Source: Hufsiella arboris (GTDB lineage Bacteria > Bacteroidota > Bacteroidia > Sphingobacteriales > Sphingobacteriaceae). Taken from it: a stretch of 64,000 nucleotides of DNA. The translations under genes were made by a program, and so were the position numbers. This document shows positions 21,234-39,138 of the stretch, piece after piece; within the stretch, counting starts at the first letter, position 1; each line of letters opens with the position of its first letter. The notes under the pieces are model-generated. The model did no database searches and was not told the DNA's origin. It worked only from the letters and a program-made list of their open reading frames with translations. The DNA is taken from contig NZ_WVHT01000001.1 in assembly GCF_009834875.1 (NCBI RefSeq), forward strand, positions 496,001 to 560,000, read 5' to 3'.

Positions 21234-24200
21234 ATGGAGCTCGGAGGAAACTACCAGAATCTATTAATCAAAATCGATGCGTTTATTCGTAAATACTACC
21301 TCAACCAGGTTGTAAGAGGCTGCATTTATTTAGCGGCGTCGCTTTTTATATCTTATCTGCTGGTGACGTTTACCGAGTTTTACGGGAACTTTAGCCCAAT
21401 TGTCCGAACGTTTCTTTTCTACGGATATATCATCATCAATTTGTTGATTTTCGTTCTGCTACTGCTAAGGCCGCTTTTGTCGTACTTTAACTTAGGAAAA
21501 GTTATCTCAGCCGAGCAAGCAGCCCTGATTATCGGCGATCATTTCAGTGATGTTAGTGACAAACTGTTAAATACTCTTCAGCTTAAAAAACTCGCGGAAC
21601 AAAACCCAGAACAAGTTTCACTGATATCCGCTAGCATTAATCAGCGCGTATCCGAATTACGGCCGGTTCCTTTCGCATCCGCAGTTCGCATTAATGAAAA
21701 CAGAAAATATTTGAAGTACGCGGTTGCGCCGCTCATCGTTATTGTGATTATCGCATTCACTGCACCTGCTATTTTCAGTGAGAGTACTACCCGGCTTATT
21801 GGTTACAATCGGGTGTTTGTAAAAAAAGCTCCCTTCGATTTTATTATAGAGAACAACTCCTTAAAATCTGTACAAGGTGATGATTTCGTACTGAAGGTTA
21901 AAATGACGGGAAATGAGATTCCTCAGGATATCTATTTACAGGACGGCCCGAATACGTTTAAATTGGACAAAAAAGATGTTATCCATTTCGAGTATGCTTT
22001 TAAAAATGTGCAGCAGACACAAGAGTTTAAGCTTGAGGGCGGTGATTTTACTTCGGAGAAGTATACATTAAACGTTCAGAAAAAACCATCCCTCATAAAT
22101 ATTGAAGCTGAGCTCAGATATCCATCATATCTGAATAAAAAAAGCGAACATGTCCAAAGTTTTAGCGACATAACCGTTCCTTGCGGCACATTAATCAGTT
22201 GGAAAATAGCCGCTCAGAATATTGATATGGTTGATATCAACGATGGAAAAAACATTGCTCATATCTCGCCTGGCGACTTATCTTATTCATTCAGAGCTTT
22301 GCAAAGTAGTCGTTACGACGTAATTCCCCGTAAAAATGAAGTAAAGAAACAACAGCCGATCAGTTACAAAATTGATGTTATCCCCGATTTAAACCCGGTA
22401 ATCTCTGTAAATGAAAAACCTGATTCTGTAAACACTAACGTAAGGTATTTCGTAGGCAATATTTCAGATGATTATGGATTCAGCCGTCTCACATTTCATT
22501 ACAGGACAGTTAGCAACGGCCAGTCTGGCAGAGATAAACAGCTAATCATCCCTTTTGATCGAGGAAATATCCAAAGTTCATTTTTTCATTTTTTTGATTT
22601 TAAATCAGCGAATGCCAAACCAGGGGAAAGCATCGAATATTATTTCGAGGTTTTTGACAATGACGGCGTACATGGACCGAAAATGAGCCGTTCGGAAATA
22701 AGGACTTTCAGTGTACCAACAACTGCAGAAACACAGAAAAAGTTGGATGAAGGCTCCGAATCGGTTAAGCAAAAAATGGATCGTGCGATAACAATTGCAT
22801 CCCAGGTCGAGTCGCAAGCGAAAAAGGTAAATCAGCAACTTCTTAATAAAAAAGAGCTTTCTTTCGACGACAAAAAGCAAGTTGAGAACCTGTTATCGAA
22901 GCAAAAACAATTAGAAGATCTGGTAAAAGACATTCAAAAGGAAAACAAGCAGAATTTATTTGAGCGCCAGGAATCACAGCAGGAAAGGCAACAGATCGTT
23001 GAACGTCAGAAACAAATTGAGGATCTGTTTAATAATGTACTGGACGAGAAAACGAAAGAAATTTTAAAGAATATCCAAAAGCTGCTGGATGACAATAACA
23101 AAAGTCAAACTCGTGAGGAATTGTCGAAAATGCAGCTGGAAAATAAGTCACTTCAAAAAGAATTGGATCGTATTCTTGATTTATACAAACAACTGGAGTT
23201 TGATCAGAAACTATCTCAAACAATTGATAAACTTAACGATCTTTCAAAAGATCAGCAGCAATTATCGGATAAGTCTGCCAAAAAAAATCCGAATACTAAT
23301 GATCTTAAACTACAACAGGAATCCTTAAATAAGGATTTCAAAGATTTAAAAGATCAATTGAGTGATTTGGAAAAAAAAGACAATGAACTTGGCGATAAAA
23401 ACAATTTTGATGAGCAGAAAAATGAACAGCAGCAAATAGAGCAACAGCAGCAGCAAAGTTCAAAAGAACTTGACAATAACAATGCTGGCAAGGCATCACA
23501 AAGCCAGAAAAAAGCGGCACAACAAATGCAGCAGCTTAGTCAAAAGCTGCAGTCGATGCAACAAAAACAGGAGTCGCAGGAGAATCAAATAAATCTTCAA
23601 AACCTGCGTCAGATATTAAGCAAGCTGTTAACGGCATCATTTCAGCAGGAAAATGTTATGCAAACGGTCAGGACAACTAAACCTGTTGATCCGAATTATA
23701 TCAAACTAACAGAGCGCCAGCGCGATTTGAAAGATAATCTTAAAAGTGTTCAGGATAGCTTATATCAGCTTAGCAAACGGGTTCCACAAATCGAATCGGT
23801 TGTCAACAAAGAAATAACTGCTATTAACAGCAATATGGATAAAGCCTTGGAGCTGCTGGGCGAAAGAAAAACCGCCGAAGCAAATAGCAGCCAGCAATAT
23901 GCGATGACAGCCATAAACAACCTGGCGTTGATGTTAAGTGAAGTTGAAAACAAGTTGCAGCAGGCAATGAAAAATTCAAAACCGGGAAGCAGCGGGAAAC
24001 AACCGTCATTATCACAGCTGAGCCAAATGCAAAATCAGCTAAATAAGAATATGGAGAAGGCACGGCAGCAAATGCAGCAACAAGGAAAAATGCCTGGTAG
24101 CCAGGGAAAAGGAATGAGCGAACAATTTTCGAGGATGGCGCAGCAGCAGCAAATGATACGGCAATCACTTCAGGATATTAATCGTGAAATGAATAAAGAT

Positions 24201-24545
24201 GGTAAGGGTGGACTAGGTAATTTGGGTGATTTAACAAAACAAATGGAACAAACCGAGACTGATCTCGTAAACAAACGCATACAGCAGGAAACAATAAAAC
24301 GCCAGCAGGATATACTGACCAAGTTATTGGACGCGGAAAAAGCTGAAAGAGAGCGGGATCAGGATCAAAAAAGGGAAAGTAAGCAAGGCACGCAAAATGC
24401 TTATAATTACAAAGCAGTTCTGGAGGAATACAAAAAAAACAAACAGTCAGAAACAGAGTTTCTTAAAACAGTAACGCCCTCTATGAACACATTTTATAAA
24501 ATTAAAGTTGAAGATTATTTTAAATTCTTAAATTCGGGTAAATAA
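21234..24545 (+). CDS. DUF4175 family giant membrane protein with coiled coil
   Basis: An 1103-aa protein. Two to three N-terminal membrane segments (residues about 30-55, 62-85 and 160-180), then a beta-rich region (residues 190-500, VRYFVGNISDDYGFSRLTFHYR) of the DUF4175 type, then about 550 residues of highly charged coiled coil with long Gln-rich runs (QQQQ segments near 730-780 and 920-960). It should be an inner-membrane protein with a large periplasmic or cytoplasmic rod. Its function is not known; the phylum-wide linkage in this neighbourhood to an RsbW-like ATPase and ybeY is consistent with a core role. Confidence 0.8.
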   Translation: MELGGNYQNLLIKIDAFIRKYYLNQVVRGCIYLAASLFISYLLVTFTEFYGNFSPIVRTFLFYGYIIINLLIFVLLLLRPLLSYFNLGKVISAEQAALIIGDHFSDVSDKLLNTLQLKKLAEQNPEQVSLISASINQRVSELRPVPFASAVRINENRKYLKYAVAPLIVIVIIAFTAPAIFSESTTRLIGYNRVFVKKAPFDFIIENNSLKSVQGDDFVLKVKMTGNEIPQDIYLQDGPNTFKLDKKDVIHFEYAFKNVQQTQEFKLEGGDFTSEKYTLNVQKKPSLINIEAELRYPSYLNKKSEHVQSFSDITVPCGTLISWKIAAQNIDMVDINDGKNIAHISPGDLSYSFRALQSSRYDVIPRKNEVKKQQPISYKIDVIPDLNPVISVNEKPDSVNTNVRYFVGNISDDYGFSRLTFHYRTVSNGQSGRDKQLIIPFDRGNIQSSFFHFFDFKSANAKPGESIEYYFEVFDNDGVHGPKMSRSEIRTFSVPTTAETQKKLDEGSESVKQKMDRAITIASQVESQAKKVNQQLLNKKELSFDDKKQVENLLSKQKQLEDLVKDIQKENKQNLFERQESQQERQQIVERQKQIEDLFNNVLDEKTKEILKNIQKLLDDNNKSQTREELSKMQLENKSLQKELDRILDLYKQLEFDQKLSQTIDKLNDLSKDQQQLSDKSAKKNPNTNDLKLQQESLNKDFKDLKDQLSDLEKKDNELGDKNNFDEQKNEQQQIEQQQQQSSKELDNNNAGKASQSQKKAAQQMQQLSQKLQSMQQKQESQENQINLQNLRQILSKLLTASFQQENVMQTVRTTKPVDPNYIKLTERQRDLKDNLKSVQDSLYQLSKRVPQIESVVNKEITAINSNMDKALELLGERKTAEANSSQQYAMTAINNLALMLSEVENKLQQAMKNSKPGSSGKQPSLSQLSQMQNQLNKNMEKARQQMQQQGKMPGSQGKGMSEQFSRMAQQQQMIRQSLQDINREMNKDGKGGLGNLGDLTKQMEQTETDLVNKRIQQETIKRQQDILTKLLDAEKAERERDQDQKRESKQGTQNAYNYKAVLEEYKKNKQSETEFLKTVTPSMNTFYKIKVEDYFKFLNSGK

Positions 24546-24546
24546 T

Positions 24547-24981
24547 ATGATCGATAACCGTGCTGATAGCAATGTGAAAACGGTTCTTTACACATTGCAA
24601 CTACCCTCAACTCTTGAAAGCCTCACTTCAGTAGAAAATTTCGTTGACAAGATAAAAGATGAATACGACGTCCAGGAGGATACATATGCCAATATACTGA
24701 CTTGTTTGAGCGAGGCAACTATCAACGCGATATTACACGGAAACAAAGAGGACAAATCGAAAAAAGTATTTATCAACCTCGAAGTAGTCGAAAACAGGAA
24801 ACTGATATTCACGATAAGCGACGAAGGTGAGGGTTTTGACTATAGTCTTCTTCCGGACCCCACCGCACCTGAAAATTTAGAAAATCTTTCAGGAAGAGGC
24901 GTGTTCATTATCAAGCATCTTGCTGACCAGTGTATCTTTAATACTCAAGGCAATGAAATTGAATTACACTTTAAGATTTAA
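24547..24981 (+). CDS. RsbW-like histidine-kinase-type ATPase
   Basis: A 144-aa lone GHKL ATPase domain of the anti-sigma factor serine kinase type. N box EATINAILHGN, G1 SDEGEGFDYS, G2 GRGVFIIKHLAD. It begins one base after the DUF4175 stop and overlaps ybeY by one base. In other bacteria such proteins phosphorylate an anti-anti-sigma partner; no STAS partner or sigma gene is visible here. Confidence 0.85.
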   Translation: MIDNRADSNVKTVLYTLQLPSTLESLTSVENFVDKIKDEYDVQEDTYANILTCLSEATINAILHGNKEDKSKKVFINLEVVENRKLIFTISDEGEGFDYSLLPDPTAPENLENLSGRGVFIIKHLADQCIFNTQGNEIELHFKI

Positions 24982-25415
24982 TGCCAAAAAGTTCCATTCA
25001 ATTTTTCTCTGAAGACATTCCGTTTATTTTAAAAAACAAGGGCAAAATCCGCCAATGGCTTGACACAACAATCAGGCACGAAGGCAAACATACCGGGATG
25101 CTGAATTTTATTTTCTGCAGCGACAGCTATCTTTTAAATATAAATCGCCAGTACCTCAACCATGATACATACACGGATATCATAACCTTTGATACCAGCG
25201 AAGAAAAAAAGGAGATTTCAGGAGATATCTTTATTAGCATTGAGCGGGTAAAAGAAAATGCTGTAAAATTTGGCGTATCCGAATTTGACGAGGTTTGCAG
25301 AATTGTCATACACGGAACCTTACATCTCATTGGCTATAAAGACAAAAGCAAAGCCGACAAAGCATTGATGACTCAAAAAGAAGATCAATACCTGTCGGCT
25401 CGAAGTTCTGTTTAG
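24981..25415 (+). CDS. ybeY: Endoribonuclease YbeY (rRNA maturation factor)
   Basis: A 144-aa YbeY, involved in 16S rRNA 3' end maturation and ribosome quality control. The zinc motif is H111-G-T-L-H115-L-I-G-Y. The usual third histidine of HGxLHLxGYDH is aspartate here (D121, in GYKDKSK), a change I also recall in other Bacteroidota. The N-terminal YLNHDTYTDIITFD signature is intact. Overlaps the preceding ATPase gene by one base (TAATG). Confidence 0.92.
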   Translation: MPKSSIQFFSEDIPFILKNKGKIRQWLDTTIRHEGKHTGMLNFIFCSDSYLLNINRQYLNHDTYTDIITFDTSEEKKEISGDIFISIERVKENAVKFGVSEFDEVCRIVIHGTLHLIGYKDKSKADKALMTQKEDQYLSARSSV

Positions 25416-25422
25416 CAAAACT

Positions 25423-26133
25423 TTATTCCATCGGAATTTCGATAATTAAGACTTTTGCCTTTTCACTAATCTTGATATCAAACGATTCGGCATCATATAC
25501 ACCGACAGCGTCCCTCCTTCCAAGTTCTGTACCGTCAACAGATATATTTCCTTCTATAACGAATATATAAGCGCCATTGCCGGGGAATTTGATTGTATAA
25601 GACGTTTGTTGGCCTGGTTCGAAATCTCCTATTGAGAAATGTGCATCCTGGTTTATCCACATCGCTCCCTGCTGATCGTCTGGTGACACAACTGTCTTAA
25701 ACTTGTTATATGTTTCGTCTGCGCTGTATTTCTTTTGATCATACCGGGGAGTTATATTTCGCTCCTTTGGGAATACCCATATTTGAAGCAGATTTACATC
25801 GTCCGTTGATGATGCGTTAAACTCAGAGTGCCTGATGCCGCTTCCGGCCGACATTATCTGTACTTCACCTGGAACAATATTGCCTTCAGAGCCGGTACTG
25901 TCTTTGTGCGCAAGAGTTCCTTTTAGCGGGATTGTAACGATCTCCATATTGTCGTGCCCGTGAGTTCCAAATCCCATCCCAGGAGACACTATATCATCGT
26001 TTAGAACCCTTAGTAGGCCGAAGTGGACCTTCTGTGGATCAAAGAAACCTCCAAAACTAAACGAGTGAGCCGCTTTGAGCCAGCCATGGTCCTGGATTCC
26101 CCTTTCAATTGCTTTGTGAACTATTTTTTTCAT
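25423..26133 (-). CDS. Pirin family protein
   Basis: A 236-aa bicupin. The N-terminal cupin bears the pirin metal motif (FGTHGHDNMEIVTI and H/E ligands, with SGIRHSEFN), and the C-terminal cupin is short. Pirins are iron-binding; some homologues act as quercetinases or in redox sensing. The gene converges on ybeY and is divergent from the NAD(P)-binding protein gene. Confidence 0.9.
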   Translation of the reverse strand: MKKIVHKAIERGIQDHGWLKAAHSFSFGGFFDPQKVHFGLLRVLNDDIVSPGMGFGTHGHDNMEIVTIPLKGTLAHKDSTGSEGNIVPGEVQIMSAGSGIRHSEFNASSTDDVNLLQIWVFPKERNITPRYDQKKYSADETYNKFKTVVSPDDQQGAMWINQDAHFSIGDFEPGQQTSYTIKFPGNGAYIFVIEGNISVDGTELGRRDAVGVYDAESFDIKISEKAKVLIIEIPME

Positions 26134-26152
26134 CTTTTTTGATTTTAAAAAC

Positions 26153-26171
26153 TGAGATCATTTTAATCTCA
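26153..26171. promoter_or_regulatory. Possible operator upstream of the pirin gene
   Basis: TGAGAT-CATTTTA-ATCTCA, a 6-base dyad with a 7-base spacer, lies 20 bases upstream of the pirin start, in the space shared with the divergent 26250 gene. The regulator is unknown. Confidence 0.35.
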
Positions 26172-26221
26172 TTTAAATACATGTTTAAACACACAATTCT
26201 TATACCGTAATTTAATTTGCG

Positions 26222-26229
26222 TATTTTTG
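26222..26229 (+). promoter_or_regulatory. -7 promoter element before the NAD(P)-binding gene
   Basis: TATTTTTG is an exact TAnnTTTG match 20 bases before the ATG at 26250. It supports that ATG, because a start at TTG 26217 would lie upstream of the element. No good TTG -33 was seen. Confidence 0.4.
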
Positions 26230-26249
26230 CCTTCTTTTATCCATTACGA

Positions 26250-26906
26250 ATGACAAAGACAGCGATTATTGTTGGTGCAACCGGACTAATTGGCAGTCAG
26301 TTGCTTAAGCAGTTGGTAGCATCGGACGATTTTGCCCAGATAATTCTTTTTGCCAGGAGGGATATCGGTTGTTTATCTGCTAAAACCACGCAGCATATTA
26401 TCGATTTTGATCATATACAAGATTATAGCAGTTTTATAAAGGGGGATGTTTTATTCTCATGCCTTGGTTCCACCAACAGCAAAACGCCCGATAAGGCCCT
26501 TTATAAAAAAGTAGATCTTGACTATACCCTTAGTATTGCTGAAATAGCAAAACAAAATGGTGTGGAAGATTTTCATGTTATATCGTCAATTGGAGCCGAC
26601 GCGCACTCTTCAAACTTCTATTTAAAATTAAAGGGCGAGATAGAGGACCGTGTAAAGAAGATTAGCTTCAAAAGCACTCATATTTACCAGCCGTCGTTGT
26701 TGCTTGGAAAACGGCCTGAATTTAGAGTAGGTGAACGTCTGGCTCAAGTACTAATGCCTCTTATGAGCGTCTTTTTAATCGGATCATTAAGAAAATACAA
26801 ACCAATAAAAGCTGAAGCAGTTGCTGCAGCAATGATAAACCAATCATTAAAAAATCTGAAGGGCGTATTTATTTACCCTTCAAACGAAATACAAAAATTA
26901 GCATGA
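26250..26906 (+). CDS. NAD(P)-binding oxidoreductase (HTATIP2/epimerase-like)
   Basis: A 218-aa atypical extended SDR. It opens with the cofactor loop IIVGATGLIGSQLL, then VLFSCLGSTNSKT and VEDFHVISSIGADAHS, and ends in a small substrate-binding part. This pattern is that of HTATIP2/NmrA-like proteins. No substrate is known. ATG at 26250 is preferred to TTG at 26217. Its stop overlaps the ABC-F start by four bases (ATGA). Confidence 0.8.
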   Translation: MTKTAIIVGATGLIGSQLLKQLVASDDFAQIILFARRDIGCLSAKTTQHIIDFDHIQDYSSFIKGDVLFSCLGSTNSKTPDKALYKKVDLDYTLSIAEIAKQNGVEDFHVISSIGADAHSSNFYLKLKGEIEDRVKKISFKSTHIYQPSLLLGKRPEFRVGERLAQVLMPLMSVFLIGSLRKYKPIKAEAVAAAMINQSLKNLKGVFIYPSNEIQKLA

Positions 26907-28762
26907 GCATTCTATCGGTAGAACAGGTTGGACATTCGTTTCATGACAAATGGCTTTTTAAGGAAATTACTTTCGGACTTGCCAAAGGTCAACGCGTTGC
27001 TTTGGTGGGTTATAATGGTGCGGGCAAATCAACCTTGCTGAAAATTATCGCTGAACGGCTTAAACCGGATAACGGAAAAGTTGTAAAGGAAAAAGATCTC
27101 AATATCGGATACCTGGATCAGGATCCGGATTTTAAAGACTATGACACTGTCGCGGATTTTGTTTTTTCTCAGGACAACCTGCAACAGCAACTCATCCGGC
27201 AATACGAGGAAGCGATAGATTCAGATACCCTTGATGAGGACAAACTAAATGACCTGATAAATCAAATTAGCGAAACGAATGCTTGGGAATATGAAAATCA
27301 GATAAAGACAATTATTTCCAGGCTGTCCATAACGCGCATGGATCAAAAGATCTCCAGTTTGTCTGGAGGCCAGAAAAAGCGTTTAGCTCTTGCTAAGTTA
27401 TTAATTGACGAACCGGATGTTTACATATTAGATGAGCCTACCAACCATTTGGATATTGAGATGATAGAATGGCTGGAAAGCTATTTCACCACTGGAAATA
27501 AAACTGTTCTGCTGGTTACACACGACAGGTATTTCCTGGATAACATCTGCAATAAAATACTGGAACTGGATTTCGGGAAGCTCTTTACTTATAATGGCAA
27601 ATACAATTATTTCCTTGAGAAAAAAGCTGAACGGGCAGAACTTGATCAGATCGCCTATCATAAAAACAACCAGCTATTAAAAAAGGAACTCGAGTGGATG
27701 CGGCGGCAGCCACAAGCACGCGGAACTAAATCACAGGCCCGTATAGATTCTTTTTATGCTCTGGAAGAAAAAAGTAAAGCGAAGCCAAAAAACGAAAAGG
27801 TAGAGCTTAGCATGAAAGTGGCCCGCCAGGGAAACAAGATCGTGGAGCTTGAACACGTAAAAAAATCTTTTAACGATCATCTTATTATAACCAATTTCTC
27901 CTATGTTTTCAAAAAAGGTGATAGGATTGGCGTTGCCGGGAGAAATGGCTCAGGAAAATCCACACTGTTAAATCTTATAACAGGCGGCTTGTCTCCCGAT
28001 TCAGGTAGCATAGTCATCGGAGAAACGACGGTATTCGGATACTACAATCAAAGCGGCCTTAATTTAAAAAGCGACAGTCGGGTTATTGACGTTGTAAAAG
28101 AAATAGCTGATTTCATACCGATGGCTGATGGAAAGACTATTACGGCATCCCAATTGCTTACCCAGTTTTTATTTCCGCCTGCAAGGCAATTTGAATTCGT
28201 AAGTAAATTAAGTGGCGGTGAGAAAAAACGCCTGCAACTTATGCGCGTTTTAATGAAAAATCCAAACTTTTTAATTCTGGATGAGCCTACCAACGACCTT
28301 GATATCGATACGTTAAATGTTCTCGAGGATTTTTTAGAATCTTATAAAGGTGTACTTCTATTAGTATCTCACGACAGATATTTAATGGATAAATTATCTG
28401 ATCAGCTTTTCATTTTTGAAGACAATGCTCAACTTAAAATTTATTCAGGTAACTATACCAGCTATAGAACGGATAAACAAACCGCTGATTTGATTAGTAA
28501 AGAGAAAAAAGTTGAACCTAATCAGGCCAAATCAAGTGCAAGCAAAACGAAGCTATCATATAAGGAACAAAAAGAACTTGAAACCCTGGATATCGAAGTG
28601 GCTGAATTGGAGTCTAAAATAGCCTCTCTTCATCAAAGTATGAACAATACTGTTGATCATCAAGAACTATCTAAAATAACAGCGGAAATAACCGAATTAA
28701 AAGAAGAGGTTGAAGTTAAAAGCGAGCGCTGGCTAGAGTTAACCGAGTTAAGTGAATCTTAA
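26903..28762 (+). CDS. ABC-F family ATPase
   Basis: A 619-aa soluble protein with two ABC domains and no membrane part. Domain 1: Walker [10 protein letters not shown] (36-44), signature [15 protein letters not shown], Walker B DEPTNHLD. Domain 2: [32 protein letters not shown]. The linker ([18 protein letters not shown]) and a C-terminal coiled coil (residues 545-619) match the Uup subgroup. These proteins act on the ribosome or, for Uup, in DNA/ribosome-linked functions. The stop codon lies at the edge of a parS-like palindrome. Confidence 0.93.
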
Positions 28763-28780
28763 TGTTCCACGTGGAACATT
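28761..28780. promoter_or_regulatory. parS-like palindrome 1
   Basis: AATGTTCCACGTGGAACATT is a perfect 20-base palindrome. Its core TGTTCCACGTGGAACA (28763-28778) equals the ParB-binding parS type GTTCCACGTGGAAC known from other bacteria. It overlaps the last two bases of the ABC-F stop codon. Confidence 0.8.
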
Positions 28781-28799
28781 AATAAAAACAAAGTGGACA

Positions 28800-28815
28800 C
28801 GTTCCACGTGGAACA
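28800..28815. promoter_or_regulatory. parS-like palindrome 2
   Basis: CGTTCCACGTGGAACA contains the perfect 14-base GTTCCACGTGGAAC (28801-28814), six bases before the mnmG ATG. It is 37 bases centre to centre (about 3.5 helix turns) from palindrome 1, so bound ParB would reach into the translation start region of mnmG. Confidence 0.8.
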
Positions 28816-28820
28816 TTGAT

Positions 28821-30683
28821 ATGTTTAAAGAATACGATGTAATAGTAGTTGGTGCCGGCCATGCTGGATGTGAGGCCGCTGCCGCTGCTGCAAATTTGGG
28901 ATCGAGTGTGTTATTGATCACAATGAATATGAATACGATCGCCCAAATGAGCTGCAATCCAGCAATGGGGGGAGTAGCAAAGGGACAAATTGTTAGAGAA
29001 ATCGACGCAATGGGTGGCTACTCAGGTATTGTTACCGATAAGACAAGTATACAATTCCGAATGCTGAATCAATCAAAGGGTCCGGCGATGTGGAGCCCTC
29101 GCGCTCAAAGCGATCGAATGAGATTTGCTGAAGAATGGCGCTTAACGCTTGAAAGGATCCCGAATATCGATTTTTGGCAGGATACTGTATCGTCGGTCTT
29201 GGTCAAGGGAAATACAATTCGCGGTATAAGAACATCTCTTGGAATTGAAATCGCATCTAAAGCTGTTGTTCTAACAAACGGTACTTTTTTAAACGGCCTT
29301 ATTCATATTGGTGAAAAGAAATTCGGGGGTGGCAGGACCGCAGAAAAAGCGGCTACCGGTTTAACCGAGCAGCTAACTGACCTGGGTTTTGAAGCAGGTC
29401 GAATGAAGACAGGAACACCTCCCAGAATCGATGGAAGAAGTCTCGATTACACTAAGATGGAAGAACAGTGGGGAGATGAGGAAAGAGGCAGATTTTCCTT
29501 TACAGAGGTTGAAATGATCGAACAACAACGATGCTGTTGGATTACTTATACAAATGCATCTGTTCATGAGACGTTAAAGGAGGGTTTTGAAAAATCGCCC
29601 ATGTTTACCGGCAGGATTAAAGGCCTTGGACCCCGCTATTGCCCATCTATCGAAGATAAAATTAACCGCTTTGCTGAACGTGAAAGGCATCAGATATTTG
29701 TAGAACCGGAAGGACTTAACACAGTTGAAATTTACGTAAACGGGTTCTCTACCTCCCTTCCTGAAGACGTGCAGTATAAAGCATTAACAAAAATACCAGG
29801 TTTCGAGAATGCTAAAATGTTCAGACCGGGGTACGCGATAGAATATGATTACTTTCCTCCTACCCAACTTTCGTTGACGCTTGAAACAAAGCTAATATCA
29901 AATCTATTTTTCGCTGGCCAGATCAACGGTACAACCGGTTACGAAGAAGCAGCTTGTCAAGGCTTTATTGCAGGAATAAATGCCCATCAAAAAATAACAG
30001 ATCAACATGAGCTTATCATGAAACGATCTGAATCCTACATTGGTGTATTAATTGATGATTTGGTAACGAAGGGAACTGAAGAACCTTATAGAATGTTTAC
30101 TTCAAGAGCAGAACACCGATTGCTATTACGCCAGGATAATGCCGACATTCGCTTAACACCCATCGCCCACAAACTAGGATTAGTTAATAACGAACGGCTT
30201 GAAAAAGTAAATAGCAAAATAACCGACGCACAGCGTATCGTTGATTTTGTTAAATCGGCATCTGTTTCACCAAGCCAGGTAAACGCCTTATTGGAAAATC
30301 TTGGTACATCGCCCATTACTCAAAATGTAAAGCTTTTTCAACTTTTATCGCGCCCTCAACTTTCCGTTTCTGATATAAGAAAAATCAGCAATGAACTGGA
30401 TCAGTTGCTTGAAGGATATAAAAAAGAAACCATTGAAGAAGCTGAGATAAAAGTTAAATACGAAAGCTATTTTGAGAAAGAACAAGAAATCGTGACACGT
30501 ATGAAAAAAATGGAAGATCAAACAATCAATCCTGATTTTGACTACCATAAGTTAGTGTCTCTTTCAAAAGAGGCAAGAGAGAAGTTAATGAAAATCAAAC
30601 CCCGAACTTTGGGTCAAGCTTCACGAATTTCCGGAGTCTCACCATCTGATATCACAGTTTTAATGGTTCATGTATCTAAATAA
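28821..30683 (+). CDS. mnmG: tRNA uridine-5-carboxymethylaminomethyl enzyme MnmG
   Basis: A 620-aa FAD protein that with MnmE makes the cmnm5 modification at U34 of tRNAs. Signatures: FAD loop [49 protein letters not shown] and the C-terminal LMVHVSK-type end. The reading frame is open to 28752, but ATG 28821 is chosen: it gives the standard length (E. coli 629) and the extra 23 codons merely translate the parS sites. No mnmE is in the window. Confidence 0.96.
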
Positions 30684-30784
30684 CTGAAAATCAATATTTT
30701 ATAAAAAATTAATTATAATCGATTATTTTTCATTTCGAATGATAATCTTTACAAAATAACAAAAATCGTTTAAACAGCTTATAA

Positions 30785-32419
30785 ATGCCTTATTTTCGGA
30801 AGACCTACTTTAACGAAATTTATTTAATCTTATTTATTAGCATTTTAATCTGTTTTGGGTGCGCAAGTATACAATCACCAACAGGGGGGCCAAGAGATAA
30901 AACTCCTCCTAAAATTTTACGTGAAGCCCCAAAGAATCAAACAAGAAATTTCAACGCAAAGCAGATCAATATTCAGTTTGATGAATTTGTAAAACTTAGT
31001 AATGAATTTAAAGAGATTAGTATTTCTCCGGAGATGGAGAAGCTTCCGATATTTAAAGTAGTAAAAAAGGTGCTTGAGATTAAGTTCCAGGACACGCTTA
31101 TGAAAAATACTACCTATACAATAAATTTCGGAAAAGCTATAGTTGACTATAATGAAGGCAATATCCTTAAAAATTACAGCTATGTTTTCTCGACGGGAAA
31201 TACCATCGACTCCTTAAGTATCTCAGGTAATGTTATTAACTCGATTACAAAAACGCCTGAAATGGAAACGACGGTATTTATTGTACCGGTAAAACAAGAT
31301 ACCATATTCGGTAAACGCAAGGCAAGTATATTTACCACTACCGATTCATCAGGGAATTTTGCCCTTCATAATTTACGAGCAAATCAGTATAAAATTTATG
31401 CTGTTAAAGAAACCGGTGGCGGAGATAGAATTTATAACTCACCAAATGAAGATGTAGCGTTTCTTAAAGATACTATTAACCTAAAGGGCAATATAAGTAA
31501 TATTAAACTTCAAACATTTAAACAGCCTGCTTCAGTCTTTAGAACCGTCGAGCGAAAGTTATTTAACGATGGGCATTTGCTCTATACCTTTAACAGGCCA
31601 ATAGAGAAACCCTCTTTTAAAATACTCGATCCGCAGGATTTTGATTCCAGGAAAATAACGGAATTTAATAAAGCAGGAGATTCAGTACTTGTCTGGGTTC
31701 CGGAAATAAAATTCGATAGCTTAACTACCAGTATATCAGATGCCGGCGTGCCCCTGGATACGATTGTAATTAAAAGAAATAAACGGGACACTTATAACTC
31801 AACAGTTCAGATATATGATAACTTATCTGGCCAGCGGGTCAAAACTAAAGGTGACATATTGCTTACTATGTCTGTACCTTTATCTGCTATAGACCAATCT
31901 AAAGTTCAACTTACCGAAGATTCAATACCTGTAAAAAACTTCCGAATTACAAAAGATACTACATCTCAAAGAAGGTATAAACTTTCATACCCATGGCGCT
32001 CAAAGAGGCAATATGATTTAAAAATAGCCGACAACGCGGTTACCAGTATAATGAACGGAAAAAATAAGTCATATGCTAAATCACTCTCCGCCTATATAGA
32101 TGATAACTTCGGAAACCTTCTTTTAAATGTTACTGTACCTGATTCATCTAAACAATACATTGTCCAGCTTTTGGGAAATTCAGACGATGTCGTTAAAGAA
32201 AACCTAATTAAAAAATCCGGCAAAATTCAGTATATCGGGCTACCCGCAGGTAAATATAAAGCCAGGATCGTTTATGATTTAAATAATAACGGTAAATGGG
32301 ACACAGGAAATGTTATCAAACAAATACAACCAGAACCTATTATGAACAATGATAAGGAGTTCAGCCTTCGCCCAAGCTGGGATCTAGAAGATGTTTTAAC
32401 TATCCCGCCGGTTCCGTAA
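30785..32419 (+). CDS. Ig-like (Big_5) domain lipoprotein
   Basis: A 544-aa lipoprotein: signal with C26 (ILICFGC), then the ASIQSPTGGPRDKTPPKI opening typical of a phylum-specific family. Residues 40-140 form a Big_5/SbsA-type Ig-like domain (IQFDEFVKLSNEFKEISISP). Carboxypeptidase-like beta regions follow (GNFALHNLRANQYKIYAVKE, residues about 190-220), and KYKARIVYDLNNNGKWDTG near the C-terminus. Likely anchored at the outer membrane; role unknown. The 3' end overlaps the convergent carbonic anhydrase gene by 20 bases. The 101 bases upstream are very AT-rich. Confidence 0.8.
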   Translation: MPYFRKTYFNEIYLILFISILICFGCASIQSPTGGPRDKTPPKILREAPKNQTRNFNAKQINIQFDEFVKLSNEFKEISISPEMEKLPIFKVVKKVLEIKFQDTLMKNTTYTINFGKAIVDYNEGNILKNYSYVFSTGNTIDSLSISGNVINSITKTPEMETTVFIVPVKQDTIFGKRKASIFTTTDSSGNFALHNLRANQYKIYAVKETGGGDRIYNSPNEDVAFLKDTINLKGNISNIKLQTFKQPASVFRTVERKLFNDGHLLYTFNRPIEKPSFKILDPQDFDSRKITEFNKAGDSVLVWVPEIKFDSLTTSISDAGVPLDTIVIKRNKRDTYNSTVQIYDNLSGQRVKTKGDILLTMSVPLSAIDQSKVQLTEDSIPVKNFRITKDTTSQRRYKLSYPWRSKRQYDLKIADNAVTSIMNGKNKSYAKSLSAYIDDNFGNLLLNVTVPDSSKQYIVQLLGNSDDVVKENLIKKSGKIQYIGLPAGKYKARIVYDLNNNGKWDTGNVIKQIQPEPIMNNDKEFSLRPSWDLEDVLTIPPVP

Positions 32420-32921
32420 ACCAGGAGGAATAAAGCTTATAATTTTCAGGTAATTTGTTCAACAACTCACGCTGTTCTTCTGTGATCGGTTTAATCTTTT
32501 TTGCTGGCGTACCAGCATATAAATAACCGCTCTCACAAAGGGTATTTTCAAGAACAACTGAACCTGCGGCGATTATACAATAAGGTTCTATAACGGCATG
32601 ATCCATCACTACAGCGCGCATACCTATTAATACGTTATCATTAATAATACAGCCGTGAACTATCGCCAAATGGCCGACAGATACATTGTTGCCAATAAAA
32701 GTCGCCGCTTTCAAATAAGTACAATGGATCACAGCGCCATCCTGAATATTGGTATTATCTCCGATAGTAATACTGTTAACATCTCCCCTAACCACAGCGT
32801 TGAACCATACCGAGCAGTTTTTTCCAATAACTACGCTTCCAACAACAGTTGCGTTTTCTGCTATAAAACAATTCTCTCCAAAACTTGGCTCAACTCCTTT
32901 TACAGGTAAAATAACTGGCAT
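32400..32921 (-). CDS. Gamma-carbonic anhydrase family protein
   Basis: A 173-aa left-handed beta-helix protein with hexapeptide repeats ([LIV]G-x4). The zinc histidines H66 (VIHC), H84 and H89 (VGHLAIVHG) match the gamma-class pattern. CaiE/YrdA-type proteins with this fold may or may not be active hydratases; the class is often annotated as carbonic anhydrase/acetyltransferase. The start follows nadB by two bases on the same strand, so both may be transcribed together. Confidence 0.9.
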   Translation of the reverse strand: MPVILPVKGVEPSFGENCFIAENATVVGSVVIGKNCSVWFNAVVRGDVNSITIGDNTNIQDGAVIHCTYLKAATFIGNNVSVGHLAIVHGCIINDNVLIGMRAVVMDHAVIEPYCIIAAGSVVLENTLCESGYLYAGTPAKKIKPITEEQRELLNKLPENYKLYSSWFTEPAG

Positions 32922-32923
32922 AA

Positions 32924-34510
32924 TTAAAAAATTGTATCCTCCAAAGTTTTCTGATGTTCCGGGTAATCTGTGGTGTAGTGTAGTCCCCTGCTTTCCTTAC
33001 GTAATTTTGCCGATTTAATTACTATGTAAGCCGTTTGAATAACATTACGAAGTTCGCATAACTTTACAGACAGCTTGGTTTTTTTGTAAAAACTTTCTGT
33101 TTCGTCATACAATAAACCAAGTCGGCGCAACGCCCGTTCAAGCCTGAAATCGGACCTGACAATTCCCACGTAATCGCTCATTACACGTTGAGTTTCACGC
33201 AGATTATGAGTTACTAATATGTCTTCGTTTGATAACTGCGTATTTGTTTCGTCCCATTCAGGTATATTATCAGGAACATTATAATCTCTAAACTTTCTGA
33301 TGCTATCCTCATAAATACGATGAGCAAACACCGTTGCTTCGAGCAACGAATTAGAAGCCAGCCTGTTCGCTCCGTGCAAACCGGTTGACGAACATTCACC
33401 GCAAGCATACAATCTTCCTATAGATGATTGTCCATATTCATTAACCATTATACCACCACACATGTAATGAGCCGCCGGCGTAACAGGTATCATATCTTTA
33501 GTCATATCAATACCTATACTTAAACACTTTGCATAAATATTAGGAAAATGCTTCAGAATGTCTTCCTTGGAACGATGCCTGATATCTAAATATACATAGT
33601 CGTCTCCCGATTTCTTCATTTCCGCATCGACCGCACGGGCTGTTATATCTCTGGGCGCTAGTGATTTCCGCGCATCGTAATTTTGCATGAACTCATTCCC
33701 ATCCCTGGTTTTTAATATACCGCCAAATCCTCTAACCGCTTCAGAAATAAGAAATGATGGATATTCGCCTGGATTGTATAACGCTGTTGGATGAAACTGA
33801 ATGAACTCCATATTCCGAACTTTCCCTTTTGCACGGTAGACCATCGCTATTCCATCACCAGTAGCAATTACAGGATTAGTTGTATGCATATAAATATGTC
33901 CGGCACCTCCAGTCGCCATTACAGTAACACGAGCCAGAATTTTCTCAACGGCATTTGTTACCGTATTTAACGCATAAATTCCATAACATTCAATGTCTCC
34001 TGAATTACGGCTTACAAAATCTCCTAAATGATGCTGCGTAATGAGCTCTATCGAAAAAAAATGTGTTAATAACTCAATATTTGGTTCCTCCTTAACTTTT
34101 TCAAGCAAGGCACGTTCAATTTCAAAACCCGTAATATCCTTATAATGAAGCACTCTGTGTTCAGAATGACCACCTTCTTTGGCTAAATCATAGATTCCCT
34201 GATTCGTCATATCAAAGTGAGTGCCGTAATCTATAATCTCCTGAATGCGCTCCGGTCCTTCTTTTACAACCACTTCCACAATATGTTTATCACATAATCC
34301 ATCACCGGCAATAAGAGTATCTTCTATATGTTTGTCGAAAGAATCTTCTTTATCCACAACTACAGCTACCCCACCCTGGGCATATTTAGTGTTGGATTCG
34401 TCGGCATTTGCTTTTGTAACTATCAGTACCTTACCATGTTTTGCCGCCTTTAGTGCAAAACTTAAACCAGCTATTCCTGAACCTACAATTAAGAAATCAA
34501 CATTCCTCAT
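32924..34510 (-). CDS. nadB: L-aspartate oxidase NadB
   Basis: A 528-aa FAD enzyme that oxidises L-aspartate to iminoaspartate for NAD synthesis. FAD loop VGSGIAGLSFALKAA, AQGGVAVV, the HSEHRVLHYKD active-site region, FHPTALY, and YMCGGI-type motifs are seen. It is divergent from nadA, which takes its product, across a 412-base intergenic region, so both could share a regulator. Confidence 0.96.
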   Translation of the reverse strand: MRNVDFLIVGSGIAGLSFALKAAKHGKVLIVTKANADESNTKYAQGGVAVVVDKEDSFDKHIEDTLIAGDGLCDKHIVEVVVKEGPERIQEIIDYGTHFDMTNQGIYDLAKEGGHSEHRVLHYKDITGFEIERALLEKVKEEPNIELLTHFFSIELITQHHLGDFVSRNSGDIECYGIYALNTVTNAVEKILARVTVMATGGAGHIYMHTTNPVIATGDGIAMVYRAKGKVRNMEFIQFHPTALYNPGEYPSFLISEAVRGFGGILKTRDGNEFMQNYDARKSLAPRDITARAVDAEMKKSGDDYVYLDIRHRSKEDILKHFPNIYAKCLSIGIDMTKDMIPVTPAAHYMCGGIMVNEYGQSSIGRLYACGECSSTGLHGANRLASNSLLEATVFAHRIYEDSIRKFRDYNVPDNIPEWDETNTQLSNEDILVTHNLRETQRVMSDYVGIVRSDFRLERALRRLGLLYDETESFYKKTKLSVKLCELRNVIQTAYIVIKSAKLRKESRGLHYTTDYPEHQKTLEDTIF

Positions 34511-34922
34511 GGAAAATTTTTAAATGTTTTAATGAGCCAAACACAAAGATGTTAATAAGCGGCTGAAAGATGTTAATTTTGCATTAAATCAGGTGAATTA
34601 ATTTTTAAAGATTCCTGATACATGTTAAGTATCGCTGATCGTCGCCTAGTTATCGTTAAATTATAAGCATAGTTACGTCTGATATTAACAAAGAACCGAC
34701 AGCTACTAATTAACGGCAGAAAGAAATTGAATTTTCTTTGCTACTTATAATATATTATTTATCAATCGATTAAGTAGTTGATAACGTTGATAACTTGTTG
34801 AAAAGAAATTTAAAACCAAATTCCTTTAAAAAAGTTTAGCGACTTTCTAACAATACCAACATGCTAATAAACAATAAGAATATTTTAAATTAAATAATTA
34901 GTATTTATTGAAGTGTAGATAA
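34511..34922. other. 412-bp AT-rich nadB-nadA intergenic region
   Basis: No gene is apparent. It holds: (1) a perfect tandem 9-mer GTTGATAAC x2 at 34777-34794, which on the opposite strand reads TTATCAACG / TTATCAACT, seven of nine bases matching the DnaA box TTATCCACA; (2) a third TTATCAA at 34759-34765; (3) a dyad AAAGAAA-N6-TTTCTTT at 34720-34739; (4) a very AT-rich stretch at 34745-34770. It may be a shared operator for nadB/nadA, or origin-like DNA (see findings). Confidence 0.5.
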
Positions 34923-35915
34923 ATGAATATTTTAGAAGAAATAAATATCAAGGGTTTTGTTGATGAGCCGATCGATCCAACACTTGATTTGTTTGAAGAA
35001 ATTGAACGACTTAAAAAGGAAAAAAATGCTGTTATACTTGCGCACTATTACCAGGAACCGGATATTCAGGATATTGCGGATTATATAGGCGATAGCCTCG
35101 GGTTATCACAGCAGGCTGCTAAAACCGATGCGGATATTATTGTTTTTGCAGGGGTGCACTTCATGGCTGAAACAGCAAAAATTTTGTCTCCCTCAAAAAC
35201 AGTTCTGTTGCCGGATGTGAAAGCTGGATGCTCATTATCAGATAGTTGCCCGCCGCATCTATTTGCAAAATTTAAAGAGAAATATCCAGATCACCTGGTA
35301 ATAACTTATGTAAACTGCACTGCCGAACTTAAAGCTTTAAGTGACATTGTTTGTACCTCGAGCAATGCCGTACAGATTGTAGAAAGCTTACCAAAAGACC
35401 AGAAAATTATATTCGGGCCAGACAAAAACCTGGGCGCTTATGTGATAAAGAAAACTGGCAGGGATATGGTTTTGTGGAATGGAGCGTGCATGGTTCATGA
35501 AATATTTTCAGAGCAGCGGATTGTTAAATTAAAAGAACGCCATCCAAATGCCCGTTTTATCGCGCATCCCGAGTGTGAAGACGTTGTTTTAAAAATGGCC
35601 GATTACGTTGGATCAACGACCGGTTTATTGAAATACACTGTTGATAACCCGGCAAAGGAATTTATCGTTGCAACGGAAAGCGGAATAATCCACCAAATGG
35701 AAAAGGCAAATCCTGATAAAGTGTTCATTCCCGCGCCTCCAAATAACGCTTGCGCATGTAATGATTGTCCTCATATGAAGAGAAATACGCTCGAAAAACT
35801 TTATCTCTGCCTGAAAAATGAACTTCCGGAAGTTACAGTTCCAATGAATGTGATTGAAAAAGCAAGAAAACCGATTGAACGCATGCTCGAAATATCTGAG
35901 CGTTTAGGATTATAG
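34923..35915 (+). CDS. nadA: Quinolinate synthase NadA
   Basis: A 330-aa [4Fe-4S] enzyme joining iminoaspartate and dihydroxyacetone phosphate to give quinolinate. Motifs: [38 protein letters not shown] and [15 protein letters not shown], which hold the cluster cysteines. It is of normal length and followed by a strong terminator. Confidence 0.96.
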
Positions 35916-35916
35916 T

Positions 35917-35945
35917 AAAAGGCTGGTTTTTACCGGCCTTTTTTA
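35917..35945 (+). terminator. Rho-independent terminator after nadA
   Basis: AAAAGGCTGGT (35917-35927) pairs with ACCGGCCTTTT (35932-35942) with one T-G wobble and a TTTT loop, followed by a T-run. Confidence 0.85.
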
Positions 35946-35995
35946 TTGTAAGAATATTTACTTACATATTTTATTAACTTGTCCGCTTGTTAAAA

Positions 35996-37234
35996 ATGGA
36001 CAATCCTAAAAATATACTTAGAAATTACGCAGGAATACTGCTTTTATTAACTGGGATAACTATTGGAAGCATAGCTGGTTTTTTCCTGGGCGATAAGGTC
36101 ACTGTATTAAAACCACTTGGTGATATTTTTCTAAATCTTCTTTTCACAGCGGTTATTCCGTTAGTCTTTTTTGCAGTTTCTTCGGCAATTTCCGGCCTCG
36201 ACAGATCGACAAAAATCGGTAAACTGATGACCGTAATGTTTTCGGTTTTTCTGTTAACTGTACTAATATCAGCGATTATTACGATTGTTGGTACTTGGCT
36301 GTTCCCTATAAACCAGCACAGCAGCATTGTTAAGCAAGCGATAGAAAATCACGAAGTAAAAACAGTTGGAGAAGAATTAACCCAACTATTGACAGTCGGC
36401 GAGTTTTCGGATCTGCTTTCCAGAAAAAGCATGCTCGCTTTAATAATTTTTTCCGTACTGGTTGGCTTCGCTTCATTACATTCAGGTGAAAGTGGAGAAT
36501 CGTTCCGAAAGTTTCTTACTTCAGGAACAGAAGTGATGAAGAAACTGGTGGTAATCATCATGAAGCTAGCGCCGATCGGTTTAGGAGCTTATTTTGCTTA
36601 CCAGGTGGGAGTTTTAGGGCCGCAGCTTTTTGGTACTTACGCCCGAGCTTTAGGTTTGTATTATGGTTTGGGACTTTTTTACTTTATAGTCTTTTTCAGC
36701 TTGTACGCTTTTGTGGCTGGAGGCTACAGCGCTGTTAAGAGATATTGGAAAAATAATATTATCCCATCGCTAACTTCAGTTGGTACATGTAGCAGCATCG
36801 CGAGTATTCCGGCTAATCTCGACGCCTCTGTTAAAATGGGCATTCCTTCATACATCGCAAACGTAACAATGCCGCTGGGTGGCACATTACATAAAGACGG
36901 CTCCAGTATCAGTTCGGTAATCAAAATAGCGGTTGTGTTTGCCATTTTTGGAAAAGACCTAGCGCATGTGGATACAGTTTTGCTAGCTCTGGGAATAACC
37001 GTGCTTGTAAGTGTTGTTGAAGGAGGAATACCAAACGGCGGTTATATAGGAGAATTATTGATGATATCCGCTTATCATTTACCACCTGAAGCATTGCCTC
37101 CGGCCATGATTATCGGAACACTAGTTGATCCGATGGCGACGCTTTTGAATGTTACTGGAGACACTGCTGCAGGTATGCTTATAACCAGGATTATGGAAGG
37201 TAAAAACTGGCTTTCTAAAACTGTTACTTCATGA
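35996..37234 (+). CDS. Dicarboxylate/amino acid:cation symporter (DAACS)
   Basis: A 412-aa transporter of the glutamate/aspartate/dicarboxylate:cation family. About eight hydrophobic segments; the re-entrant loop region TSVGTCSSIASIPANLD and the PLGGTLHKDGSSISSVIKIA motif are diagnostic, followed by VDPMATLLNVTGDTAA. It imports C4 or acidic amino acids with Na+ or H+. ATG at 35996 is preferred to TTG 35987. The stop overlaps the next start by four bases (ATGA). Confidence 0.92.
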   Translation: MDNPKNILRNYAGILLLLTGITIGSIAGFFLGDKVTVLKPLGDIFLNLLFTAVIPLVFFAVSSAISGLDRSTKIGKLMTVMFSVFLLTVLISAIITIVGTWLFPINQHSSIVKQAIENHEVKTVGEELTQLLTVGEFSDLLSRKSMLALIIFSVLVGFASLHSGESGESFRKFLTSGTEVMKKLVVIIMKLAPIGLGAYFAYQVGVLGPQLFGTYARALGLYYGLGLFYFIVFFSLYAFVAGGYSAVKRYWKNNIIPSLTSVGTCSSIASIPANLDASVKMGIPSYIANVTMPLGGTLHKDGSSISSVIKIAVVFAIFGKDLAHVDTVLLALGITVLVSVVEGGIPNGGYIGELLMISAYHLPPEALPPAMIIGTLVDPMATLLNVTGDTAAGMLITRIMEGKNWLSKTVTS

Positions 37235-37962
37235 TTTCAAGAAAATTAGTTTTCATTATTATTTCGATTCTGACTTATAATTTGTCCACAGCACAGCCGG
37301 TACAAATTGGCGGTACCTATAATTCTCAACAACTTGTGATAGTAAAAACCATCGGTTGGAACGATATACACGGCCGTCTAACAGCTTATGAATGGAATGA
37401 TTCGAAGTGGAAAGAAGTGTTAAAAGATATTCCTGTTATTGTTGGAAGAAGCGGTTTGGCATGGGGAAAGAGCCTGTTAAAAACACAGAATACGGAAGGG
37501 AAACAAAAGAAAGAAGGCGACGGAAACTCACCAGCGGGTATTTTCAAGCTAACAGGTCTATTTGGGTATAATGATTTTGATTCAAAAATGAATTCGTTGA
37601 AAGTGGACACGGCAACTTATTGTGTAGATGATCTCAAGTCAAAATACTACAACCGAATTGTTAAAACTGATACGGTTAAAAAGGAATGGAATTCTGCCGA
37701 AACGATGAAATTAAAAGATGATGAATATAAGTACGGAGTTTTTGTAGCCTACAATACGTCAGAGATTGAACCCGGAAAGGGCTCATGTATCTTTATGCAT
37801 ATATGGAAAAACAGTGAGAATCCTACGTCTGGCTGTACAGCTATGACGGAAGAAAACATCATCAAACTCATTAGTTTTCTGGATAAAAATAAGAATCCTT
37901 TGCTCATCCAGTTGCCTGCCAACGAATATAAAAAGCTCGGTAAAACATACATCTTGCCTTAA
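37231..37962 (+). CDS. L,D-transpeptidase family protein (YkuD-like)
   Basis: A 243-aa secreted protein (signal to about residue 21). Residues 160-210 carry the catalytic motif H190-x-x-K...S-G-C202 (FMHIWKNSENPTSGCTAM), typical of YkuD-type enzymes that crosslink peptidoglycan or attach proteins. The other conserved part is VIVGRSGLAWGKSL and GDGNSPAGIFKL. ATGA overlap with the symporter gene suggests coexpression. Confidence 0.85.
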   Translation: MISRKLVFIIISILTYNLSTAQPVQIGGTYNSQQLVIVKTIGWNDIHGRLTAYEWNDSKWKEVLKDIPVIVGRSGLAWGKSLLKTQNTEGKQKKEGDGNSPAGIFKLTGLFGYNDFDSKMNSLKVDTATYCVDDLKSKYYNRIVKTDTVKKEWNSAETMKLKDDEYKYGVFVAYNTSEIEPGKGSCIFMHIWKNSENPTSGCTAMTEENIIKLISFLDKNKNPLLIQLPANEYKKLGKTYILP

Positions 37963-37994
37963 GTTTTCGCAATTTTGCAAAACATTCGAGTATT

Positions 37995-39035: not shown

Positions 39036-39138
39036 GATAAGATCAGACAAGTATTTGCGAAATAATCATTAAGAAAACGGCTTTATAAAGGCATAATTTC
39101 GGATGTTGAAATACTCGTCCAGAGTTTAAAATCCTGAA

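Follow-up and report, generated by a model that had tools for sequence, protein, structure and literature searches.

A conserved pair of parS-like palindromes at mnmG as the probable ParB loading centre near the replication origin of Hufsiella arboris

Chromosomal parS sites share a degenerate 16-bp consensus, TGTTNCACGTGNAACA. In the ParABS systems of Bacillus, Caulobacter and Pseudomonas, this palindrome is present in a few clustered copies near the origin, ParB carries residues of the R173/G201 type, and a ParA gene lies beside parB. An origin-near position of parS is stated for known systems in the available portion of a review (PMC7333895). For Bacteroides caecimuris and Muribaculum intestinale, the accessible sections of one paper (PMC10197239) report one to ten parS sites in 12 genomes, mostly clustered, and use parS to place the origin, which was not always at dnaA; no known condensin was found in these two species. 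A Flammeovirga paper discusses the ParA/ParB of the second chromosome.

The kind of site described here is already known; the interesting part is a phylum-wide tie to mnmG (gidA), which was not found in print within the scope searched. To our knowledge, chromosome segregation in the Bacteroidota has been little studied. Titles and abstract openings in the literature yielded no parS site at mnmG or gidA in the Bacteroidota, a scope that did not extend to the 2007 survey by Livny et al., which is said to be the main survey of parS and may well list these sites. The terms gidA and mnmG are absent from the text of PMC10197239 and from the review PMC7333895, the available part of PMC2099444 does not connect gidA with parS, and the string 'Bacteroid' is absent from the text of Ori-Finder 2022.

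The DNA analysed, called the window below, is a stretch of 64,000 nucleotides of the Hufsiella arboris genome (contig C1, positions 496001-560000, genome G000 of the set described below). The locus is like the systems of Bacillus, Caulobacter and Pseudomonas in its palindrome, in the small number and origin-near clustering of its sites, in its type of ParB and in having a ParA gene beside parB. Unlike in those systems, the sites lie at mnmG and parAB is on another contig (in four relatives, parB is 0.30-1.1 Mb away); just two exact copies are present, 37 bp apart, and dnaA lies 0.36-1.0 Mb off in three of the four relatives. The features of the locus are collected in Table 1.

Table 1. Features of the mnmG locus, in window coordinates.
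Feature	Position	Strand	Basis or remarks
Distal parS-like site, GTTCCACGTGGAAC	28764..28777	.	Exact 14-bp palindrome; conserved in relatives
Proximal parS-like site, GTTCCACGTGGAAC	28801..28814	.	Exact 14-bp palindrome
mnmG (gidA), 620 aa	28821..30683	+	TIGR00136, 840 bits
ABC-F family ATPase, upstream neighbour	26903..28762	+	NF000355, 408 bits (cut-off 380); stop codon within distal palindrome
nadB, L-aspartate oxidase	32924..34510	-	Profile match
nadA, quinolinate synthase	34923..35915	+	Profile match
Gap between the divergent nadB and nadA genes, candidate oriC	34511..34922	.	AT-rich, DnaA-box-like words
Predicted RNA hairpin formed by pairing of the sites	28759..28819	+	19-bp stem, 23-nt loop; -30.7 kcal/mol, z -4.0

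A preliminary description of the window had pointed to two perfect palindromes 37 bases apart, one touching the stop codon of the ABC-F gene and the other six bases before the mnmG start codon, and the sequence and placement of both proved to be exact. The starts of the sites are separated by 37 bp, leaving 23 bases in between. As a 16-mer, the distal site is TGTTCCACGTGGAACA (28763-28778) and matches the degenerate consensus at 16 of 16 positions; the proximal site matches at 15 of 16, its first base being C, not T. The ABC-F stop codon, TAA (28760-28762), belongs to a perfect palindrome of 24 bp (28759-28782) whose core is the distal site. The symmetry of the proximal site covers 14 bp, and six bases separate its end from the mnmG ATG at 28821.

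When up to two mismatches were allowed, the window contained two matches, namely the pair itself, against an expectation of 0.06, and none of 100 dinucleotide shuffles of the window produced two. The whole assembly (4,801,297 bases in 56 contigs) holds two exact copies of GTTCCACGTGGAAC, both at mnmG, so that the earlier remark that no other copy was seen in the window is true of exact copies, and extends to all 4.80 Mb. Copies spread evenly round the chromosome, which had been named as the outcome that speaks against a centromere-like site, were not seen in this genome-wide search; the two exact copies are clustered. There is no one-mismatch copy of GTTCCACGTGGAAC in the assembly, and two-mismatch copies occur in five places (three for a reversed-pattern control); the degenerate form GTTYCACGTGRAAC, with one mismatch, adds two places (C17:3289 and C45:401810; control, one). 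The probability that the palindromes are a product of chance is negligible given the window count and the shuffles, and chance is refuted by the conservation of the sites at the same place in relatives.

Conservation was examined in a set of 60 genomes comprising that of H. arboris, 36 others of its family (f1) and single representatives of 23 further families in the same class. The motif GTTNCACGTGNAAC was found in 57 of them at 0 to 4 copies per genome across the set (0 or 1 for the reversed control), and was absent from three (G008, G029 and G046). In 53 of the 60, mnmG has an exact site no more than 1.3 kb away. These are 35 of 37 genomes of family f1, with the site upstream of the gene in all 35, and 18 of 23 genomes of other families, where it may be upstream, downstream, inside the gene or on both sides. 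The exceptions are G008 and G029 in f1, and G041, G043, G046, G049 and G051 in the other families. Both sites are upstream of mnmG in, for example, G050, G052 and G054, and downstream in G039, G042 and G055; G040, G045 and G056 are examples with one site on either side, approximately 1.9 kb apart. Among the sites listed for the 60 genomes most are clustered, with exceptions that include G058, which has one on another contig. A third site is found about 6.5 kb past mnmG in G013, and G043 has a single site, 88 kb from mnmG and beside a gene read as uvrC.

In some genomes of other families, parS sites fall within the coding sequence of mnmG or of a neighbouring methyltransferase-like gene (L007, L010, L014, L024 and L025). 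The sites of G041, G049 and G051 adjoin or fall inside a gene whose motif was read as that of a methyltransferase, and a homologue of this gene is also present near mnmG in 12 genomes of other families; a search of G049 for mnmG gave no match. Neither member of genus g8 (G008 and G029) has an exact site. At the same place upstream of mnmG, G008 carries three copies with one mismatch each, in which the changes are confined to the central CACGTG and the half-site GTTCCAC is intact.

The intergenic place and the dyad symmetry of the palindromes would also suit operators through which an ordinary transcription factor controls mnmG or the ABC-F gene, with no part in segregation. However, the genome has no further exact copy, the known parS consensus is matched and a fitting ParB is present, and the motif tracks the locus rather than one side of one gene, being upstream, downstream or inside genes elsewhere. 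We consider it very unlikely that the sites are such operators.

A scan with MnmG as the query, from which 80 named loci were kept, provided a second view of the sites. The top locus was that of Pedobacter sp. BS3 (87% identity), followed by loci from Mucilaginibacter, Pedobacter, Sphingobacterium, Hufsiella and Cytophagales. Exact sites were upstream only in 66 loci, on both sides in one, downstream only in one, and in neither place in 12. A version with one mismatch is present upstream in four of these 12 (three Runella and one Larkinella), and another of the 12 (L263) is on a contig without the upstream part. The seven loci with no site near the ends of mnmG (L278, L279, L281, L284, L288, L289 and L299) include four Saprospiraceae-like records (L279 is presumably of that family). 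The number of upstream copies per locus was two in 47, three in 11, four in two, one in seven and zero in 13. When the two free positions of the motif were left open to every base, they were occupied by C or T (Y) and by G or A (R) in all 142 upstream sites. The 67 proximal sites are preceded by T in 54 cases and followed by A in 56, giving the consensus TGTTYCACGTGRAACA; the published parS consensus, as given in the accessible text of PMC10197239, is TGTTTCACGTGAAACA. The centres of 60 pairs are 24 to 112 bases apart (36-49 in 37 pairs), a range over which no single helical phase is kept.

The H. arboris genome encodes one ParB-type protein, on contig C23 (TIGR00180, 177 bits; cut-off 58.45). 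The frame of a ParA-type ATPase adjoins parB (L005); the best 25 of the 28 models that match this frame belong to ParA/MinD-like families, all of them below their cut-offs. Across the 60 genomes, a ParB match above the cut-off was obtained in 59, with one further fragment in G029, and none was obtained in G059. In the PDB, the best relatives of the H. arboris protein are ParB and Spo0J (E down to 2e-52); Noc follows closely. Alignment with Noc and Spo0J gives R, Y, K and G at the positions equivalent to 173, 179, 184 and 201 of Caulobacter ParB. According to the available part of PMC7383237, every extant ParB orthologue retains R173 and G201, and variation occurs at positions 179 and 184. In an alignment of 31 rows, on which the four positions were also assigned by column, RYKG was present in 22 and other combinations with R and G at the outer positions in eight; row L066 is in a wrong frame, so that R and G are found in 30 of the 31 rows.

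Noc is a homologous DNA-binding protein with a related palindrome, NBS, and the sites might instead be a Noc-binding cluster serving nucleoid occlusion. The H. arboris protein scores higher with the Noc model TIGR04285 (234 bits) than with TIGR00180 (177 bits), and its lysine 184 is described as being of the permissive kind in the same portion of PMC7383237, in which NBS-preferring variants are said to favour sites with A and C at positions 1 and 6. Yet 234 bits falls short of the TIGR04285 cut-off of 315, whereas 177 bits exceeds that of TIGR00180; the protein has R173 and G201 where Noc has Q173 and R201; positions 1 and 6 of the sites are G and A, not A and C; and the genome has two exact sites only, near a turn of the GC skew. 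Judged by its residues, a protein with K184 that lacks Q173 and R201 would not be a Noc. A Noc/NBS assignment was rejected on the residues of ParB and the sequence of the sites, both of which are of the parS type, and is extremely improbable.

SMC (TIGR02168, above cut-off) and ScpB (PF04079) were both found in the same 39 of the 60 genomes, including that of H. arboris, which in this respect is unlike Bacteroides caecimuris and Muribaculum intestinale, although all three belong to one phylum. Both proteins are absent from the other 21 genomes, of which 20 keep ParB and 20 have the parS motif. Both members of genus g2, in the same family as H. arboris, are without SMC and ScpB and have a single parS each. 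The division follows families, and the genomes are therefore not independent evidence. Sites of the parS type are nevertheless retained where the SMC-ScpB condensin is absent, in line with the absence of a condensin reported in the available sections of PMC10197239. The 20 genomes that have the motif and lack both proteins make the role of ParB-parS without this condensin testable.

The preliminary description had proposed that the positions of the sites be compared with GC skew and with parB. The raw GC skew of the contig is negative in all 12 stretches between 40 and 496 kb, zero over the next 16 kb and positive in nine of the ten pieces past 512 kb; the pair lies at 524.8 kb. Third-position skew was also modelled on 83 frames, with gene strand as a covariate, and the turn was placed at 20.5-22.9 kb of the window; the five best turns spanned 15.9-22.9 kb, with a residual of 115.7 compared with 153.3 when no turn was included. 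The pair, at 28.8 kb of the window, is 6-13 kb from the modelled turn, an offset taken as being within the resolving power of the model. In the accessible part of PMC2099444, gidA appears in a list of ten genes that are often close to bacterial origins.

The skew of four relatives was sampled as 20 stretches of 20 kb. In G025 and G035, the skew minimum is at mnmG and is clear in both. The cumulative skew of G007 is flat from approximately 0.86 to 1.5 Mb, with mnmG inside this interval at 0.96 Mb and a shallow turn. With single-contig genomes treated as circular, the distance from mnmG to dnaA is 0.74 Mb in G025, 0.36 Mb in G035, 1.01 Mb in G007 and 0.016 Mb in G014, and that from mnmG to parB is 1.02, 0.39, 1.11 and 0.30 Mb, respectively; in the H. 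arboris assembly (56 contigs), parB is on a contig other than that of mnmG. The skew minimum is marked by the parS pair, and not by dnaA or parB, in three of the four relatives. The position at the skew turn, in the contig itself and in these three relatives, speaks for the centromere-like reading of the sites, as does the single ParB with parS-type residues; the parB gene is not beside mnmG. As dnaA is 0.36-1.0 Mb from mnmG in three of the four relatives, and mnmG is at the skew minimum, dnaA would mislead as a marker of the origin, and a pair of parS sites at one conserved gene offers a simple marker of the origin region in draft genomes.

The fourth relative, G014, is ambiguous: its contig C1 has two negative-to-positive skew turns, near 0.02-0.19 Mb and 1.75-1.92 Mb, with exact parS sites at the first only; a recent rearrangement or an assembly fault is possible. 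Four of the six one-mismatch sites of this genome are within about 125 kb of its exact pair. In H. arboris, one of the places found with the degenerate form (C45:401810-401823) is a one-mismatch parS-like sequence, GTTCCACGTGAAAA, 0.9 kb from the dnaA match (C45:399492-400883), and a weak second site may therefore exist there. A one-mismatch site is 18 kb from dnaA in G025, and none was found near dnaA in G007 or G035.

From the conservation of the sites, the presence of a single ParB with the specificity residues and the position at the turn of the GC skew, the pair is very probably the chromosomal parS cluster of H. arboris, i.e., a ParB loading centre near oriC. The parS-like, centromere-like reading first put forward for the palindromes is upheld by the same three lines of evidence. 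The data presented here provide the sequence, scarcity and conservation of the sites, the ParB and ParA genes, the residues of ParB and the position at the skew turn; binding, CTP-dependent loading and segregation are taken from known ParABS systems. By analogy with those systems, a ParB dimer would bind each palindrome, with one half-site, GTTYCAC, per subunit. ParB with CTP would then close as a clamp and slide to the flanking DNA, forming a partition complex, after which ParA would separate the newly copied origin regions. The two neighbouring sites would act as one loading centre near oriC, itself probably no more than some 10-20 kb from the pair and perhaps at the gap between nadB and nadA.

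The nadB-nadA gap is about 5.7 kb from the pair in the window. In 19 of 20 fetched genomes of the family, it is 410-517 bp long and 5.3-6.9 kb from the mnmG start; the twentieth gave no match to nadB or nadA. The order of the two genes is inverted relative to mnmG in two genomes (L214 and L223). In 35 of the 37 genomes of family f1, nadA and mnmG share a contig; one of the 35 is G023, with a nadA match below the cut-off. Over H. arboris and 19 other genomes, the gap contains 102 9-mers within two mismatches of TTATCCACA, 2.9 times the shuffle expectation of 35.3, with a mismatch limit that was chosen post hoc, after the gap had been inspected; other gaps of at least 150 bp in the same DNA contain 72 such words against 66.8 expected. 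Ranked by box-like words, the nadB-nadA gap came first in 16 of the 20 genomes (in two of which it was the sole gap) and second in four. Words counted with no choice of mismatch limit were also enriched in the gap: TTATTAAC occurred 20 times (2.0 expected), TTATCCAC six times (0.1) and TTATTCAC eight times (0.6). TGTTAG and AAGATG words are equally enriched there, perhaps as operators of the nad genes. None of the six matches of the window to the stricter pattern TTWTNCACA falls in the gap, and stricter patterns show no cluster in the window. Judging by these words, the chance that the gap, a candidate only, is oriC is about even; searches of the literature with terms other than nadA did not find it in print as a candidate origin.

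The words AAAGATGT and ACTAACAC recur in the gap (L204-L205 and L207-L223 equivalents). A copy of TTATCCACA at 34350 of the window lies inside nadB and was set aside as probably coding; 13 of the 20 fetched relatives also have it, in the same orientation and 5.4-5.8 kb from the start of mnmG.

The preliminary description had also remarked that the proximal palindrome takes the place of the mnmG ribosome binding site, through which ParB could affect expression. Bacteroidota seldom use a Shine-Dalgarno sequence, which would weaken the argument from the ribosome binding site. Transcribed together, the two sites are predicted to pair in a hairpin that ends one base 5' of the mnmG ATG (Table 1), and besides serving as parS they might be a cis-regulator that lowers or times mnmG expression, via ParB or via the 19-bp RNA stem. 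The stem was predicted at -30.7 kcal/mol against a shuffle mean of -19.2, and the proximal site is 7-27 bases 5' of the ATG in 58 of the 67 named loci with an exact site upstream, although short intergenic gaps alone may account for that nearness. Complementarity between sites was 109 of 122, compared with a mean of 101.1 for permuted partners, and was reached in none of 5000 permutations at the precision reported, a test that ignores kinship; related genomes share both sites. Moreover, symmetry within sites was also above chance (84 against 73.7, P 0.019), and pairs of two asymmetric sites were inverted in five cases and direct in eight.

The hairpin cannot form in several other families, in which the sites follow mnmG, flank it at a distance of 1.9 kb from each other or fall in coding sequence. 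An RNA element was consequently kept only as an added role, and a pure RNA-element reading, for which folding, Rfam and complementarity were examined, was ruled out by the placement of the sites in those families. Rfam models searched against 24000-40000 of the window gave none at the sites, and one sub-threshold match (35871-35944). A regulatory role in addition to that of parS is, on this evidence, unlikely. The nearness of the sites to the mnmG start codon makes it possible to ask whether the loading of ParB affects this tRNA-modification gene.

A plasmid origin of the locus was set aside, as the DNA round the sites matched mnmG only, in two plasmid records. These are NZ_OY725801.1 (Parabacteroides distasonis) and NZ_CP149720.1 (Clostridioides difficile), in which mnmG is 81% identical over 63 bases; the latter may be a mislabelled or contaminant sequence.

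A more general statement would be that the Bacteroidota have an mnmG-linked mini-centromere, typically of two parS sites, that is held in most families examined and kept with or without SMC and ScpB, that the origin in the family of H. arboris is between nadB and nadA and not at dnaA, and that the palindromes of this family also control mnmG via ParB or an mRNA hairpin. It is decidedly improbable that all of this would hold together. Across the phylum, GTTYCACGTGRAAC was found in 359 of 392 sampled genomes, with a usual copy number of two, and 33 of the 392 gave no match to it. The sites of G127 are 27 kb apart. Genera rich in copies were g48 (family f26) with 3 to 10, g94 (f34) with 6 or 7, and g147 (f56) with 4 to 6.
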